A stretch of 22,202 nt of DNA from a virus. The stretch lies in the IMG/VR virus record IMGVR_UViG_3300021605_000014, positions 1-22,202 of that record; one strand, 5' to 3'. This document shows, piece by piece, positions 1-21,464 of this stretch (positions are counted from its first letter, which is position 1; each line of letters starts with the position of its first letter). Both the position numbers and the translations under genes were made by a program. Under the pieces are notes generated by a model. The model saw nothing but the letters and a program-made list of their open reading frames with translations, was not told the origin of the DNA and did no database searches.

Positions 1-314
1 TTCGTACTGACATCAAAAGCAACGTTTTTACCTATGTGACTTTTCGCAAAAGCAACTACGTCACGGATGAATTGTTTATCCAGCAGTGGTTCACCGCCGA
101 AAAAAGCCACCAGAAAAGGTTTGTCCGCCTTAAATCCGTCACTTTTTTGATAACCTTCATAAGCGGCTTTTATGGCTTTTTTCGCAGTTTCTAACGACAT
201 GTAGTTATATTCAGACTCTTTCTTCACATAACAATAAGAGCAAGCAATATTGCAGTTTGCTGTTGTAATTAACATAACGGTTTCAGCGCGAGAAAAGCTC
301 GGAATTGAAATCAT
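1..314 (-). CDS. Radical SAM enzyme, N-terminal part (runs off left edge)
   Basis: This is a partial minus-strand gene of which the first 104 codons are visible; it is open to the window edge. The ATG at 314 follows a GAGGTG ribosome site by about 6 nt. The radical SAM iron-sulfur triad is clear: CNIACSYC gives C21, C25 and C28 (CX3CX2C). A GGEP motif at residues 73-76 is the usual SAM-contacting second strand. The spacing and the MSLETAKKAI segment look like the SPASM/anSME-type peptide-modifying group, but the C-terminal domain that would decide this lies outside the window. It starts 16 nt after the stop of a small tail-fibre-like gene and seems to belong to the same late operon. By family knowledge it should cleave S-adenosylmethionine to a 5'-deoxyadenosyl radical; the substrate is unknown. 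A protein-modifying role on a phage product is inference from position only. Confidence 0.88.
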   Translation of the reverse strand, partial: MISIPSFSRAETVMLITTANCNIACSYCYVKKESEYNYMSLETAKKAIKAAYEGYQKSDGFKADKPFLVAFFGGEPLLDKQFIRDVVAFAKSHIGKNVAFDVST

Positions 315-330
315 TGTTTTCACCTCGTTA

Positions 331-735
331 TTATTTATAAATAGCGTGTAGTTTAGCATCCATGTCATCCTGTAACTTTTTCAGCAACTGCGCGTATGTC
401 AGGTCGTAAACCCGGTCGCTGTTCACCGCGCGAGTTGCGTTCGGACATACGCAACTCGGATCGAGTTTCTCCGTTGTCACGGCGTGAGAAGCCAGCTTAT
501 CCGTCGTAACTGCAAAGTCGGCGAGATAATCAGTAATCACCCGGTCGGATTTCAGATAAAATTGATTGTAAAAGCTGATCATATTCGCAAGCGCCGCTTT
601 GAACTGTCCCTGTGTAGTCGTGGCATTCGTGAAATTGTCCGCCACCGGCTCAAACGCTGCCGCGTCCGGAGCGGCTATTTCTGCCGCGTTTACCGGTTGT
701 AACATTTGATAATTTTGTGGTTTTCGTTCTTTCAA
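331..735 (-). CDS. Small tail-fibre-like protein
   Basis: This 134-aa protein follows the J-like gene. The TTG start at 735 has a strong AAGGAGG about 5 nt upstream, whereas the next in-frame ATG (705) has no ribosome site, so TTG is preferred. The SD overlaps the TAA of the upstream gene, which suggests coupled translation. Around residues 70-92 there are two tandem copies of a short repeat (AVTTDKLA then AVTTEKLD), a pattern common in the shafts of phage tail fibres. It is followed by CVCPN and a charged, probably helical C-terminus. There is no signal peptide or membrane segment. The likely role is a small tail-tip or fibre accessory protein. Because the next gene is a radical SAM enzyme, it is also a candidate substrate, but nothing in the sequence proves that. 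Confidence 0.72.
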   Translation of the reverse strand: MKERKPQNYQMLQPVNAAEIAAPDAAAFEPVADNFTNATTTQGQFKAALANMISFYNQFYLKSDRVITDYLADFAVTTDKLASHAVTTEKLDPSCVCPNATRAVNSDRVYDLTYAQLLKKLQDDMDAKLHAIYK

Positions 736-16617: not shown

Positions 16618-17733
16618 TTAACGCCCTCCCTTTTGTTCTTGCTTGTACTTCTCGTACAAAGCCGGGTTGTTTTTCCAGACCTCAGTGCGTGCTGTCGCCT
16701 TGGTCAGCTTCGGGTTGGACTTAACAAGCTCCTCAGCTTTAACGTCAGCCTCAGCGAGCGCCGAACCGACCACGCCGGAACGCCCCGAACCGGACTCTTT
16801 GAAGAATTGCGAGTTTGCAGCTACTGCCGCATTTGCCACCATGGTCTTTAACAGATTTTCAAAATCCGTCTCCGGCATTACCGCTTTTGCGCTTTTGAGC
16901 ATCTTCACCATTTCAACAGGATCACCGACAAGTCCCAGCTCGGTTACTTTGTTCAGCAAAACTGCATCGGTTTGGTCGCCAACCATCTTAGCGATGTCTG
17001 CCTGTGCTTTGCTGATGGTCTCGCCTTGCGAGGTAATAGTTGCGCCTTGGGTAGCAATGGTCTCGCCTTGGGTCTTGATGATTGCGTCTTTGACCTCAAT
17101 AGCTTTAGCTACTTCAACCATCACTTCATCTTGGATTGATTTTTTCAGGGCTTGTTTTTCAATGTCAGTCATGTCTTCCTCCTTGTTAATTATGTTTTTT
17201 GATGGGTCAGTATCTTTTTCAGGTTCCGGGTCAGTGTCGGCTATTCCCAACACTTTTTTGAGTTGCTCGAACGCTGTCCTTAGTAATGACTCAGTGTCAG
17301 CGCTCAATTTCTTACCTGCCTTTTCAACAAGCACGTCCGCGCTCAGAATAGATTGCTGCAAATCGTTTATTTCATGCGCCATTTGCTGTTGCTTGAAAGG
17401 TCTGTCCGATAATGCCAGTTCAATTAAAGAATTCTTGAAAGCTGTGACAAGCTCGTTTACTTTGTCATCAACAACCTTACGCCGCTCGGGCGTAATTACC
17501 GGCGGCGCATTGCTTTCCATAGCCGCGTTTTCATTGATGGCGTTGTCCGTAGCGTTTCGCCCCATCAACCAGTCAATAAAGGAACTACGCAAGGGATTTT
17601 CATCCGGGGTTTCTCCTTTTTTCACTTTTTCACCTCCTTTCTTTGCAGATTTCATAACAATAAAGTTCCGTTTGTTTGCCGGATCGTTAACTAATGACAC
17701 CTCGTTGATTTGAACATCGTACAGTTCAGCCAT
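16618..17733 (-). CDS. Scaffold-like protein with XkdF-type N-terminus but no protease domain
   Basis: This 371-aa protein lies where XkdF and scaffold genes normally lie. Its ATG shares an A with the portal stop (TAATG). Residues 1-34 (DVQINEVSLVNDPANKRNF) are the short leader that precedes the protease domain in many XkdF/scaffold proteins, yet the catalytic VVYEPxxxDAHxD region is absent. The rest is highly charged and helical. A block near residues 218-248 has a repeated TQGETI/TQGATI/SQGETI pattern with a 42-bp near-repeat, typical of coiled coil. The C-terminus ends NNPALYEKYKQEQKGG, common in phage capsid scaffolds. The missing protease domain seems to be the separate gene at 9563-10066. 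Confidence 0.75.
   Translation of the reverse strand: MAELYDVQINEVSLVNDPANKRNFIVMKSAKKGGEKVKKGETPDENPLRSSFIDWLMGRNATDNAINENAAMESNAPPVITPERRKVVDDKVNELVTAFKNSLIELALSDRPFKQQQMAHEINDLQQSILSADVLVEKAGKKLSADTESLLRTAFEQLKKVLGIADTDPEPEKDTDPSKNIINKEEDMTDIEKQALKKSIQDEVMVEVAKAIEVKDAIIKTQGETIATQGATITSQGETISKAQADIAKMVGDQTDAVLLNKVTELGLVGDPVEMVKMLKSAKAVMPETDFENLLKTMVANAAVAANSQFFKESGSGRSGVVGSALAEADVKAEELVKSNPKLTKATARTEVWKNNPALYEKYKQEQKGGR
17012..17082. repeat. Coiled-coil repeat in scaffold gene
   Basis: GGTCTCGCCTTG occurs at 17017-17028 and again at 17059-17070, 42 bp (two heptads) apart, with a diverged copy between them. It encodes the repeated TQGETI-type units of the scaffold-like protein. Confidence 0.75.
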
Positions 17734-19114
17734 TATCCGCTACCTCCTAATCCTTTACCGAGATTGAACATTTTCGCTATCTCCTTGCGCTGTTCACCGT
17801 CAAGGTTCTCGATCGCGCCCTGAATATGCTTTTCCAAATCCGCGTCGTCTTCGGGCTGCTCACTGGCATCTGCTGCTTCTTTGGGTATTGGCGGCAGATT
17901 GCCAACGTCCCGCAAATGCGCCTCAAGCTCTCTGTCCGGTGTCAGCATCCCGGCATCGGTCAGCGTTTTGACGTATGTCGACAAATCTCTCAGGTTCGGA
18001 TTCTCAACATCGCCGTGCTTGATGCATGGGAACGGATAACCAACGCCGTTCAGGCGCATCAAAGTTGGAATCAGCTTTCTGTTCAACTCCGTTTCGATAA
18101 TGTCCAGTATTGCGCCGAGCGCATAGCTAAACATCGTCGTCTTATCGCTGGACAGCGCAAACGAACCAACGTTCGACTGTCCAAGCATTATGAAGTCCGC
18201 CAACACGCTCATGAGAATGCGTTTGTCCCAGCGTTCAATAATCAGCGTGGTATCAAACATTCTCGAACCACCGGTAGACAACAGCGACAGTTTAAACCCG
18301 GTTGGATTACCCTGTTCGTCAAGTTCTGCCGGAATAATACATCCGGCTGTTTCGTCGTTTCGTATTTGCGACAGGTACGCTTCAAGATGCTCGAACAAAG
18401 CTACCTGACCGCTAGTTAAATCGTCTGCTTCCAGCAACTTTGGCGGCACTTGAATTACCGGCAACCCTGCCAAATCGCGCTCACAGCCAATGCCCTCAAT
18501 CTCTTCGATGTTCTTCTTGAAGACGTAACTTCTATACGCGTTTCTCAAAAAACTTCTGCCTTCCGGATTATCGCGGTTTGGCTCGGTTTTGAAATGCAAG
18601 CACTTTTCATAAGGTATTTCCAGCATCTCACCCTGCGGAATTGTTAACTGACATACAGCTAATATCTTGTCGCGCTCTTCTAACTCGTCAAACACCCAGC
18701 GCCAGATTGTGTCCTGTGACCGTATACCAATCTTCCTTATCCCGATTTTGCCGTCGTTAAACTTGCTTCCTTCCGAAAACCGCCGCCGCCTGAACACCAT
18801 CTCCATGATGCTGTAACCGTATTCGATCATCGTGCAAGCCTCGGCTATCACATCGTCGAAACTGTTGACGGCATCCGAAAATAAACATTCCTCGACAAAA
18901 GAGGCATTAGCTACGTCGCCAGCATCTTCACTAGCAGGCTGCACCGACCATTTTGCATTACGGATAAGCATCTTCATGCAAAACAGCAACGCCCCAATCG
19001 TAGCGTCGTTGTCCTTCATTTCGCGATACTTGAGCATCCCCTGCCTGCCGACAAGCTCCTGCTGCCACTCGTCTCGAATAACATGTGTTATCGCCGGGGC
19101 TTTTTTATCCCCGA
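17733..19114 (-). CDS. Portal protein, exon 2 (DUF935-like)
   Basis: This is the main portal coding part. The uninterrupted reading frame with a normal ATG begins at 19037, but clear portal sequence continues upstream in the same frame: GDKKAPAITHVIRDEWQQEL to a point near 19114, beyond which a TAG (19135-19137) blocks the frame. No ribosome site precedes the 19037 ATG. Portal features: KYREMKDNDATIGALLFCMK, then EYGYSIMEMVFRRRR, PEGRSFLRNAYRSYVFKK and AGLPVIQVPP. Joined to exon 1 at 19340-19406 it gives about 482 codons, a normal portal length. The portal dodecamer is the DNA entry and exit vertex. The gene is cut by a short RNA element; precise 3' junction is uncertain (19115/19114 or 19124/19123 both keep frame). 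Confidence 0.88.
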
Positions 19115-19339
19115 CCTCTATAGCTTCTTTTCGCTATAAGTTCAGCATACATCATCAACCGTGTCCGTTACTACGGTTGCCCCACACTCTTGGCACTTCC
19201 TTTCGGTCGTACTATGCGTTACAGGACGTAAAGCCTCTCGCAATCTTTACGCTTCCCTCGGTATTAGCGTCTCAGCCTTCACCGATTTTGCAGGGTTTTC
19301 ACTCAGCGCGTTACCGCGCCTATGGGCTTATTCTACCAA
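19115..19339 (-). ncRNA. Probable group I intron in portal gene
   Basis: About 225 nt separate two portal-coding segments. At the 5' edge exon bases TGGGT pair with GCCCA (19328-19324), giving a P1-like stem with the expected terminal U-G pair and cut after 19340. Next come a GCGCG-gtaa-CGCGC hairpin, P3 candidate CCCTGC (19295-19290) with GTGGGG (19185-19180, two wobbles), J3/4-like AAAA, P4 TCGGT (19285-19281) with ACCGA (19262-19258), a CGTAAAG/CTTTACG stem, P8 candidate CAACCG/CGGTTG (19179-19174, 19161-19156) and a terminal TATAGC/GCTATA hairpin. The order is that of a compact group IA-C core, but I could not assign P7 (the guanosine site) with confidence. It has no endonuclease gene inside. 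Confidence 0.66.
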
Positions 19340-19406
19340 ACCCACCGTATTGCCTGAAACCGCCTCTGCCGGTCTGACTTAAAAACGTTTTTTTGTCACT
19401 AATCAT
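19340..19406 (-). CDS. Portal protein, exon 1
   Basis: ATG at 19406 overlaps the stop of the HNH gene and has GGAGGTG about 9 nt upstream, inside the last HNH codons. It encodes 22 codons plus one base: MISDKKTFLSQTGRGGFRQY followed by GG. Unspliced, it would end shortly after at a TAG within the intron, giving a useless peptide of about 29 aa. The phase (one base of the next codon) fits exon 2 entry at codon position two, restoring an open frame of 1449 nt. The motif GRGGFRQYG is repeated with synonymous differences at the N-terminus of the upstream HNH gene. Confidence 0.72.
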
Positions 19407-20029
19407 GCACTCGCCCACCTCCAGACGTAACCTTTGTAACTTTTTATTTTTCCGTTGCAACACTTCCTGATGGTTTTCACATTTATGCCGTTTTCTTGTG
19501 CTGCCCGTTTTGAATAATCGTAATGTTTAACGACTTCTCCAGACAAATCAAGCTGGGTTATAGGTCTTGCCCTTGAATTTCCAGCGCCTGCCATTCTTTT
19601 GGAATGTCTTTTCCTAAGCTCGAAAGTGTTGGCTGAAGCATTCATTTTTAGCATGTGTTCAATAGTTGGATTGTGACCTAGAACACGATTTCTATGTATT
19701 GCTTGTTCTTTTGAAGTAGCCCATTCTAGGTTGCTAACATCATTGTTCGCTCTGTCCCCGTCTTTGTGGTTCACTGTCGGCTTGTTCTCAGGATTAGGCA
19801 CAAAAGCGAAAGCTACAAGACGCGCAACACTCCTGTATAATTTTATCCCTTTGTTGCTTAAACCAACCACTTTATACCCATACTTACATTGGGGAATTAA
19901 TAATTTATTGCGTTTCTCGCTCCAAACTTCCCCGACACTATTGACCGAGTACCCTTCTACGCCGAATTGCCGGAAGCCCCCGCGGCCAATAGCGGTAGTC
20001 ATCAACTTACGTCTGTCTGTTTCTGCCAC
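19403..20029 (-). CDS. NUMOD4-HNH-NUMOD1 homing endonuclease with portal-like N-terminus
   Basis: This 208-aa protein starts with GTG at 20029, with GGAGG 7 nt upstream inside the end of the terminase gene. Residues about 22-70 are a NUMOD4 domain (VEGYSVNSVGEVWS). The HNH site follows with NHKDGDRANNDVSNLEWAT: H88, N95/N96 and N100. Residues about 147-206 are a NUMOD1 DNA-binding domain (TQLDLSGEVVKHYDYSKRAA ... GYVWRW). The first 23 residues are not part of the endonuclease: they include GRGGFRQFG, which recurs at the start of portal exon 1. The gene has thus captured a portal 5' end, or was inserted into one. It probably cuts intronless/insertless portal alleles to spread. Confidence 0.9.
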   Translation of the reverse strand: MAETDRRKLMTTAIGRGGFRQFGVEGYSVNSVGEVWSEKRNKLLIPQCKYGYKVVGLSNKGIKLYRSVARLVAFAFVPNPENKPTVNHKDGDRANNDVSNLEWATSKEQAIHRNRVLGHNPTIEHMLKMNASANTFELRKRHSKRMAGAGNSRARPITQLDLSGEVVKHYDYSKRAAQENGINVKTIRKCCNGKIKSYKGYVWRWASA

Positions 20030-20033
20030 TTGT

Positions 20034-21464
20034 TTACCTCCATTTGCTGTTGGAAATCGAACTTCGCAACCTAATCAATTCCGGCTTAATCTCGTTTTCT
20101 TTCCCAATCCAGTAATTAAGTACTTGAGTAGCGGCATCAATCTGATCATCGTTTTTGCCGTTTGGGAATACTGCCGCTTCTTCAATAAAATCATCAATCC
20201 ACGGCGCTAACTCTTTGTTAGGCAAATATACGTTGCCAGATTCAATGTCGGGGGTCACTGCCTGCGCTCGAACAATCTTGCCGCCTTCCGGCTCAATCGC
20301 TACTAGTCCGGGTATTTTTTTCGTGAGCAACTCAATGACCGCTGTGCCGTTAGCCTTATCCTCGACAAGCTTGCGCCGTGCCTTTGGCCATTTGGCTGTC
20401 ATGTTGACTATAGCTTGCATCGTTGCTGTTATACCCAACTTTCCGCGCGTTTGGTCAAGCAGGTATTTATCCGCGCCAATCCGCCCCCAAACCTGACCGA
20501 CTACGTAATCACTAGTTGTTAAATCCTTAAACGCACAATCCCACGACTGTATAATCTCATCAAACCGCGTCGGCATAACGCTGTAGTATTTCCACCAGTG
20601 CCGCTGAAATACCTGACCGCTGGTTGGAGATGGACGCTGTTGATATAACGCCGCCCAGAGCATACTGCCTAACGCTTTTTTAGCATCCTCGTAGAATTGT
20701 TTACTGAAACGGTTTAGCCAGAGGTATTCGCCAACCGGTCTGCCTAAAATATCGCCAGCCTCAGCGCAAGCCGGAAGCGATATAACTTCCCATTCTTCGC
20801 CGCCTTCTTTTTGTGCCTGTAACAGCCGCCCGGCGAGGTCATCCTCGTGCCAGCGCGTCATAACCAAAATAATAGCCCCGGTCGGCGACAGCCGCGTCCG
20901 GAGCGTTGATTTGTACCATTCCCATACATTGTTTCGAGTGGTTATACTGGCTGCCTCTTGCCAGTTTTTAAACGGATCGTCGATTATTGCGATGTCAGAA
21001 CCCTTTCCGGTGATTCCTCCCCCGACACCAGCCGCCACCAACCCGCCGCGCTTACCTTCAATTCCCCACTGCTCAACGCCCGAATTGTCGCGGGCTACTT
21101 GCTCACCAAACAGTTCGTTATGCTTTTTCAGGGTGTCTCTGGCAATACGGCTGAAATCCCGCGCTAAATCAACGCTGTAAGAAGATAAAATAATCTCTTT
21201 GTCAGGGTTGTTGCCCAAATACCACGCCGGAAACTTCTTTGAAACAATCTCACTCTTGCCGTTCCGGGGCGGCATGAACACCATCAGCCGTTTACATTTA
21301 CCGGCTACGACTTCATGCAGCTTATTACAGACTAATTCGAGATGCGGAGCGGTTTGCCACGCTTCCTCGCCGTCGTAGAGTAGGAATTTCAGTAACCTTC
21401 GTTTAGCTAGTACCCTCGTCGCCTCGCTCCGGTAATATCCGTTCAAGCAGCTCAAGTTCTTCAT
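20034..21464 (-). CDS. terL: Terminase large subunit
   Basis: This 476-aa protein is the DNA packaging motor. Walker A is MPPRNGKSE (64-72), Walker B DIAIIDDP (157-164), and the coupling region is VMTRWHEDD (201-209). The nuclease domain has D309 in SWDCAFKD, ED at 368-369 and the DDQIDA cluster (439-444), all present. This is the family of large terminases in PBSX-type and related Firmicute phages. The ATG at 21464 lies 62 nt inside the small subunit gene without a strong ribosome site, so translation is probably coupled. The gene ends at the GGAGGTAA that also serves as the ribosome site for the HNH gene. Confidence 0.95.
   Translation of the reverse strand: MKNLSCLNGYYRSEATRVLAKRRLLKFLLYDGEEAWQTAPHLELVCNKLHEVVAGKCKRLMVFMPPRNGKSEIVSKKFPAWYLGNNPDKEIILSSYSVDLARDFSRIARDTLKKHNELFGEQVARDNSGVEQWGIEGKRGGLVAAGVGGGITGKGSDIAIIDDPFKNWQEAASITTRNNVWEWYKSTLRTRLSPTGAIILVMTRWHEDDLAGRLLQAQKEGGEEWEVISLPACAEAGDILGRPVGEYLWLNRFSKQFYEDAKKALGSMLWAALYQQRPSPTSGQVFQRHWWKYYSVMPTRFDEIIQSWDCAFKDLTTSDYVVGQVWGRIGADKYLLDQTRGKLGITATMQAIVNMTAKWPKARRKLVEDKANGTAVIELLTKKIPGLVAIEPEGGKIVRAQAVTPDIESGNVYLPNKELAPWIDDFIEEAAVFPNGKNDDQIDAATQVLNYWIGKENEIKPELIRLRSSISNSKWR

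Follow-up and report, generated by a model that had tools for sequence, protein, structure and literature searches.

An HNH endonuclease gene with a portal-like start beside an intron-split portal gene: apparent scar of aberrant homing in a viral packaging locus

Results

Layout of the packaging locus. A viral packaging locus was found to carry two portal N termini, one serving as the start of an HNH endonuclease open reading frame (ORF) and the other, located immediately downstream, separated from the remainder of the portal gene by a group I-type intron. This arrangement probably arose through an aberrant homing event in which the portal exon 1 of the recipient was fused to an HNH gene truncated at its 5' end, and a donor's exon 1 arrived together with the intron. 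The window, i.e., the whole stretch of DNA analyzed, is a 22,202-base viral fragment consisting of one metagenomic contig (IMG/VR record IMGVR_UViG_3300021605_000014), and its packaging genes lie on the minus strand in the order terS, terL, HNH ORF, and Portal_Mu-type portal gene. The terminase large-subunit gene terL (20034..21464, minus strand; Pfam Terminase_6N/6C; PHROG 38, E 1e-120) is directly upstream of the HNH ORF (20029-19403, minus strand; 208 amino acids), which consists of a 22-codon leader with a GTG start (19964..20029, minus strand) in frame with the HNH body (19403..19963, minus strand). The HNH start lies 4 nt past the terL stop and is preceded by GGAGGT, and the portal gene directly follows terL in several relatives (loci L002, L031, L043, and L095); the endonuclease therefore does begin where the portal should, as proposed in the initial annotation of the locus. 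The second portal exon 1 (MISDKKTFLSQTGRGGFRQYGG + T; 19340..19406, minus strand), delimited from the sequence, is followed by a 258-nt intron (19082..19339, minus strand) and by portal exon 2 (FIRDEWQQELVGRQGMLKYREM...; 17733..19081, minus strand; Pfam Portal_Mu, E 2e-30; PHROG 113, E 2.5e-76).

A chimeric assembly could produce such a contig if an HNH-fused allele from one strain had been joined to an intron-bearing allele from another, and the locus is represented by a single metagenomic contig with no second record seen. This origin is nevertheless highly unlikely, since the joins are tidy: the ATG of the second exon 1 overlaps the HNH stop codon (ATGA) and has its own ribosome-binding site (GGAGGT at 19422-19417), the frames are intact on both sides, and the HNH C terminus is complete. 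Elsewhere in the window, the start of a radical SAM protein (3-368, minus strand) that resembles peptide-maturation enzymes (PapB-type and others, E 7e-16; PHROG 1802) was located downstream of the tail genes; this ORF ends at the contig edge and is an unusual cargo beside a TipJ-like tail protein.

Two diverged copies of one portal motif. Residues 15-23 of the HNH protein read GRGGFRQFG and portal exon 1 encodes GRGGFRQYG(G), just as had been noted initially, with identity at 8 of 9 amino acids and 20 of 27 nucleotides. The degenerate codon pattern for GRGGFRQ[FY]G had exactly two matches in the window (19962-19987 and 19345-19370), where shuffles expect 0, and the local BLOSUM62 score of 52 was reached by 0/5000 shuffles of either side. 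Immediately ahead of the shared core, HNH homologues do carry W-(K/R)-x-I-x-G, which loosely resembles F-R-Q-F-G, so that a WRxIxG-type HNH start might by coincidence look like the portal motif; given the seven identical residues GRGGFRQ, the shuffling result, and the lack of GRGG at this position in any HNH homologue, such a coincidence is exceedingly improbable, and a chance origin of the motif was rejected as essentially refuted.

The codons of the two copies differ largely in silent positions. Five codon pairs (CGC/AGA, GGG/GGC, GGC/GGT, CGG/AGG, and GGC/GGT) are synonymous and the sixth (TTC/TAC) changes F to Y, in line with the initial description. The seven base changes over the nine motif codons thus leave five of six changed codons synonymous and correspond to five synonymous versus two nonsynonymous steps (pS 0.73, pN 0.10), with synonymous sites near saturation; this excess is in part to be expected, since the motif was picked out by amino acid identity, which biases the measure. 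Outside the nine-residue motif, the two N termini, MAETDRRKLMTTAI and MISDKKTFLSQT, have only a weak likeness, and one copy is therefore not a simple recoding of the other. Near-saturated synonymous divergence with kept amino acids is better explained by two portal alleles that were maintained by selection while diverging in different phage lineages than by on-the-spot rewriting of one copy. The proposal that an endonuclease gene had inserted into a portal gene stands in part: the HNH ORF has captured a portal N terminus and a second, complete N terminus lies downstream. Recoding as a protection of the repaired site against cleavage is not supported and is unnecessary as an explanation, because the site is interrupted by the intron in the downstream copy and by the HNH fusion in the upstream copy.

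The HNH leader as a portal N terminus. Among 110 distinct portal relatives, the same position is occupied by G-x-x-G-(L/Q)-(R/K)-(R/Q)-(Y/F)-G-G, with (Y/I/F)(I/V) next and E or D two positions farther on, which identifies the position as a conserved N-terminal motif of Portal_Mu-type portals. The comparison with relatives suggested in the initial annotation thus placed the motif where it was expected, but not with the same residues: typical relatives have GSTGLTRFGG or GRIGQRRYGG, and the exact GRGGFRQ was present in 0 of the 110. The two window copies agree at 9/10 motif positions, and each agrees with any one of the 110 relatives at 7/10 at most; being closer to each other than to the relatives is as expected of homing between related phages. 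Against the portal N-terminal profile the leader alone scored 3.3 bits and exon 1 itself 4.9 bits, and since the leader score is weak, the argument for the leader is carried by copy-to-copy identity and position.

The other possibility raised at the outset, that the motif belongs to the endonuclease family generally, was rejected. HNH homologues and the HNH family match the window protein from residue 23 on (PHROG 59, 25-205), the bit scores of the best HNH matches were unchanged after leader removal, and none of the homologues has GRGG at the leader motif position. Homologues often begin with Mx(E)xWKxIxGYEG; that start is missing here, and the leader stands in its place. An AlphaFold2 model gave high confidence for residues 27-111 and pLDDT <50 for residues 14-20, leaving the leader unfolded. 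The position of the portal motif, the onset of family similarity at residue 23, and the unfolded leader in the model together identify the leader, as judged from sequence and predicted structure, as a portal N terminus foreign to HNH proteins.

The intron and the predicted spliced portal. The element between the portal exons is, by its sequence, a group I-type intron without an ORF. A full-length match to Rfam RF00028 at 19350-19118 (E 8.1e-5 in a 451-base search) scored 26.4 bits, below the gathering threshold of 50, and no Rfam match for the intron reached that threshold. The assignment is backed by two independent checks, one on guide pairing and one on the predicted spliced product. An internal guide, GAAUAAGCCCA (19323..19333, minus strand), would pair with exon 1 UGGGU (P1) and exon 2 UUAUUC (P10), giving 11 bp across both exon ends (UGGGU/UUAUUC), with a U.G pair at the 5' splice site and a G at the intron end. 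Among 13 candidate sites ending in G, the chosen one alone had P10 pairing of >1 bp, and a random six-base exon 2 start would achieve the full pairing about once in 1000. The predicted spliced DNA junction reads ...GGTGGGT/TTATTCGAG. The predicted spliced product gained 15.6 bits against an N-terminal portal profile built from 36 relatives (61.3 to 76.9 bits), and the corresponding protein, GRGGFRQYGGFIRDEWQQELVGRQG, aligns gap-free to relatives such as GSTGLTRFGGWIDEEWLRDLKGQRG. Splicing in vivo would thus restore the portal.

No interruption was present at the intron point in any portal relative whose sequence covers it; three relatives start later than this point, for the sole reason that their contigs end there. 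Related introns were observed in other settings. A human gut phage (MT835539; L094:2990-3210) has a related group I intron core (88% identity over 48 nt) that is preceded by a LAGLIDADG-like ORF and surrounded by a terminase-like gene, i.e., a similar intron with a different endonuclease type. The same intron core pattern was present in nine IMG/VR contigs (L098-L106), in none of which was there a match to the window portal, terL, or HNH gene.

Position of the fusion junction. The leader DNA reads CAATTCGGCG and then TAGAAGGG, the latter belonging to the HNH gene, and exon 1 reads CAATACGGTGGGT and then enters the intron. The junction (19958..19961, minus strand), CAATTCGGCG/TAGAAG compared with CAATACGGTGGGT/intron, shows that the portal-like leader sequence ends 3 nt upstream of the position that corresponds to the site of intron insertion, and the initial remark that the intron lies at nearly the same point as the endonuclease insertion is borne out. 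With random HNH insertion in a portal gene of ~1.4 kb, we estimate that a junction would fall ≤3 nt from the intron site in ~0.5% of cases. Cleavage by intron-encoded endonucleases falls no more than 25 bp from the point at which the intron is inserted (PMC2988022).

The same final layout could also have been reached stepwise, much as the initial annotation proposed, by HNH insertion into portal exon 1, later recovery of the N terminus through recombination with another phage or through local duplication plus selection for different codons, and separate acquisition of the intron. The absence of an ORF from the intron, and the occurrence of related introns elsewhere without this HNH gene, are in keeping with such a course. 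It would, however, require a non-viable or rescued intermediate, the portal being essential, as well as a coincidence that placed the HNH junction and the intron within 3 nt of each other, and its local-duplication variant is disfavored by the near-saturated synonymous divergence and the unlike upstream residues. A stepwise history is therefore unlikely, although far from negligible.

Just past the junction, a GGGT (19954-19951, minus strand) could pair with the guide and be spliced in frame to exon 2; this cryptic upstream 5' splice site was judged likely to be due to chance. If it were genuine, the HNH gene might once have resided in a larger intron starting at the leader, with its ORF in the P1 loop, and the second copy of exon 1 might have been inserted later from an allele with an ORF-less intron. 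The GGGU ~10 nt past the junction and the in-frame join of GAAGGGT/AC with exon 2 would suit this history, but the pairing is of 4 bp only and spans a >600-nt loop, the GGGU bases encode the conserved HNH residues G-Y, and a second GGGT occurs in the ORF, making it very unlikely.

The HNH body and its catalytic residues. The HNH body has a NUMOD4-like start, an HNH_3 domain (Pfam, 32.1 bits; cut-off, 24.8), and a C-terminal I-HmuI NUMOD-like region that scored below its cut-off, and it matches PHROG 59 (E 5e-39 over 25-205) and I-HmuI (1U3E, E 2e-11). Its GC3 was 39%, versus 58% for portal exon 2 (p=1.8e-5). The second exon 1 had a GC3 of 11/22, which did not differ from that of exon 2 or the leader (p about 0.5-0.8), so composition marks the HNH body alone as foreign.

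The catalytic residues of I-HmuI are D74, H75, and N96 (PMC12724721). The equivalents in the window protein are N87, which is usual in the family, H88, which is kept, and Q109 in place of Asn. Position 109 (19705-19703, minus strand) is Asn in 42 of 43 homologues and Gln here, and position 69 (19825-19823, minus strand) is His in 42 of 43 and Ala here; many of the homologues were collected by exact FVPNPENK-type patterns, and both columns lie outside such patterns. These substitutions suggest that the endonuclease may be decaying and may now be weak or inactive, and continuing homing is for that reason not claimed. An HNH homologue in Staphylococcus phage Quidividi (L093:2134-4334), whose DNA is 76% identical to that of the window HNH gene over 97 nt, is annotated inside an intron-containing Mre11 gene, so the same HNH type is intron-borne elsewhere.

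Searches for relatives. No close relative, whether an empty site, the donor layout, or a second isolate, was found in IMG/VR, GTDB genome contigs, or phage records by searches that may have missed near-identical records, and codon-level searches of all IMG/VR for GRGGFRQ[FY]GG and for the HNH start GYSVNSVGEVW gave no matches. A terL-based search, phage blastn, and one GTDB genome scan returned distant relatives only (best portals, 46-49%), and the window HNH gene was present in 0 of 129 portal loci. Because no close relative was found, we infer the history of the locus from this one metagenomic contig.

Discussion

Repair of one break is the simplest single event that would generate the locus. 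In the course that we favor, this HNH homing endonuclease would have cleaved a portal gene that was still uninterrupted, either at the present intron site or next to it, after the codons for GGFRQ(F/Y)GG. The template for repair would have been a related phage carrying the HNH gene together with portal exon 1, a group I intron lacking an ORF, and exon 2. On the right, the join would have been made by homology in exon 2; on the left, an aberrant end-to-end join would have attached the broken exon 1 of the recipient to the HNH gene in its 5' part. The HNH gene would thereby have lost its own start and about its first 8-14 codons, and the recipient's portal start would have become the start of the HNH ORF. 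A working portal would be supplied by the donor's exon 1 and intron, with translation from the ATG that overlaps the HNH stop and splicing of this exon to exon 2. If so, the HNH start should be truncated, the junction should lie at the cut, the recipient start should have been captured in frame, and the second exon 1 should come from an allele that is related to the first but distinct from it; all four are seen. More generally, though tentatively, one-sided aberrant homing at an intron site may be able to trap the recipient's 5' exon as an endonuclease start, leaving the endonuclease outside, beside an ORF-less intron.

With both exon 1 alleles, a truncated endonuclease start, an intron, and junctions 3 nt apart, the locus appears to be the scar of a botched homing event, in which an endonuclease acquired the expression signals that had served an essential packaging gene and the gene survived through a second N terminus. 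If this is true, it provides a concrete route for forming or keeping collaborative-homing loci and a phage, N-terminal version of the fungal terminal-replacement mobile ORFs. The scar suggests how endonuclease-plus-intron loci may arise and makes that question testable.

Several known systems share parts of this arrangement. Mobile ORFs (mORFs) of fungal mitochondria supply a gene with a new C terminus while the native one persists, the divergence being largely synonymous (PMC3630166). As in the mORFs of Glomus atp6, atp9, cox2, and nad3 and of Allomyces atp6 (PMC3630166), the window endonuclease ORF lies between native and replacement host-gene termini, the replacement diverges largely synonymously, and the hybrid gene uses the new terminus. 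The mORFs, in contrast, replace the C terminus and encode LAGLIDADG or GIY-YIG enzymes, whereas here it is the N terminus that is replaced, the enzyme is of the HNH type, and the host is a phage; in addition, unlike in mORFs, the enzyme itself now starts with the native terminus, and the same site holds a group I intron. By analogy, the locus is similar to these elements but would not be counted among them, since C-terminal replacement is lacking.

I-HmuI-type HNH proteins (1U3E; Skunavirus set, PMC12724721) share with the window protein full-body homology, the HNH_3 core, and a weak C-terminal DNA-binding-like match, but a portal-derived leader here replaces the family start and the N96 equivalent is Gln. 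In Skunavirus, an HNH gene between terL and portal is thought to serve packaging (PMC12724721); that gene is GVE2-like, and the window HNH is HmuI-like. Aeh1 mobE in nrdA (PMC2988022) is likewise an HNH endonuclease gene inserted into an essential phage gene; Aeh1 nrdA remains in two pieces, whereas the window portal has been re-completed by a second N terminus and predicted splicing.

In collaborative homing, an ORF-less intron and an endonuclease encoded outside it are paired at one and the same site (PMC3984707; PMC2988022); the origin of this kind of homing has been called unclear (PMC10448857). The layout of such systems, a host gene with an ORF-less intron and an adjacent endonuclease gene, is present in the window, and the junction 3 nt from the intron site is an indirect sign that this endonuclease may cut there. 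As in the collaborative and trans homing described for T7-like phages, cyanophage psbA, and T4 mobE (PMC2988022, PMC3984707), an ORF-less group I intron interrupts an essential gene with the endonuclease beside exon 1, and the endonuclease also adjoins exon 1 in the ICP1 terL intron, where a T5orf172 gene lies beside the N-terminal exon (PMC10448857). Unlike in all of these, the window endonuclease begins with a fused second exon 1 copy that ends 3 nt from the intron site, and its active site is altered.
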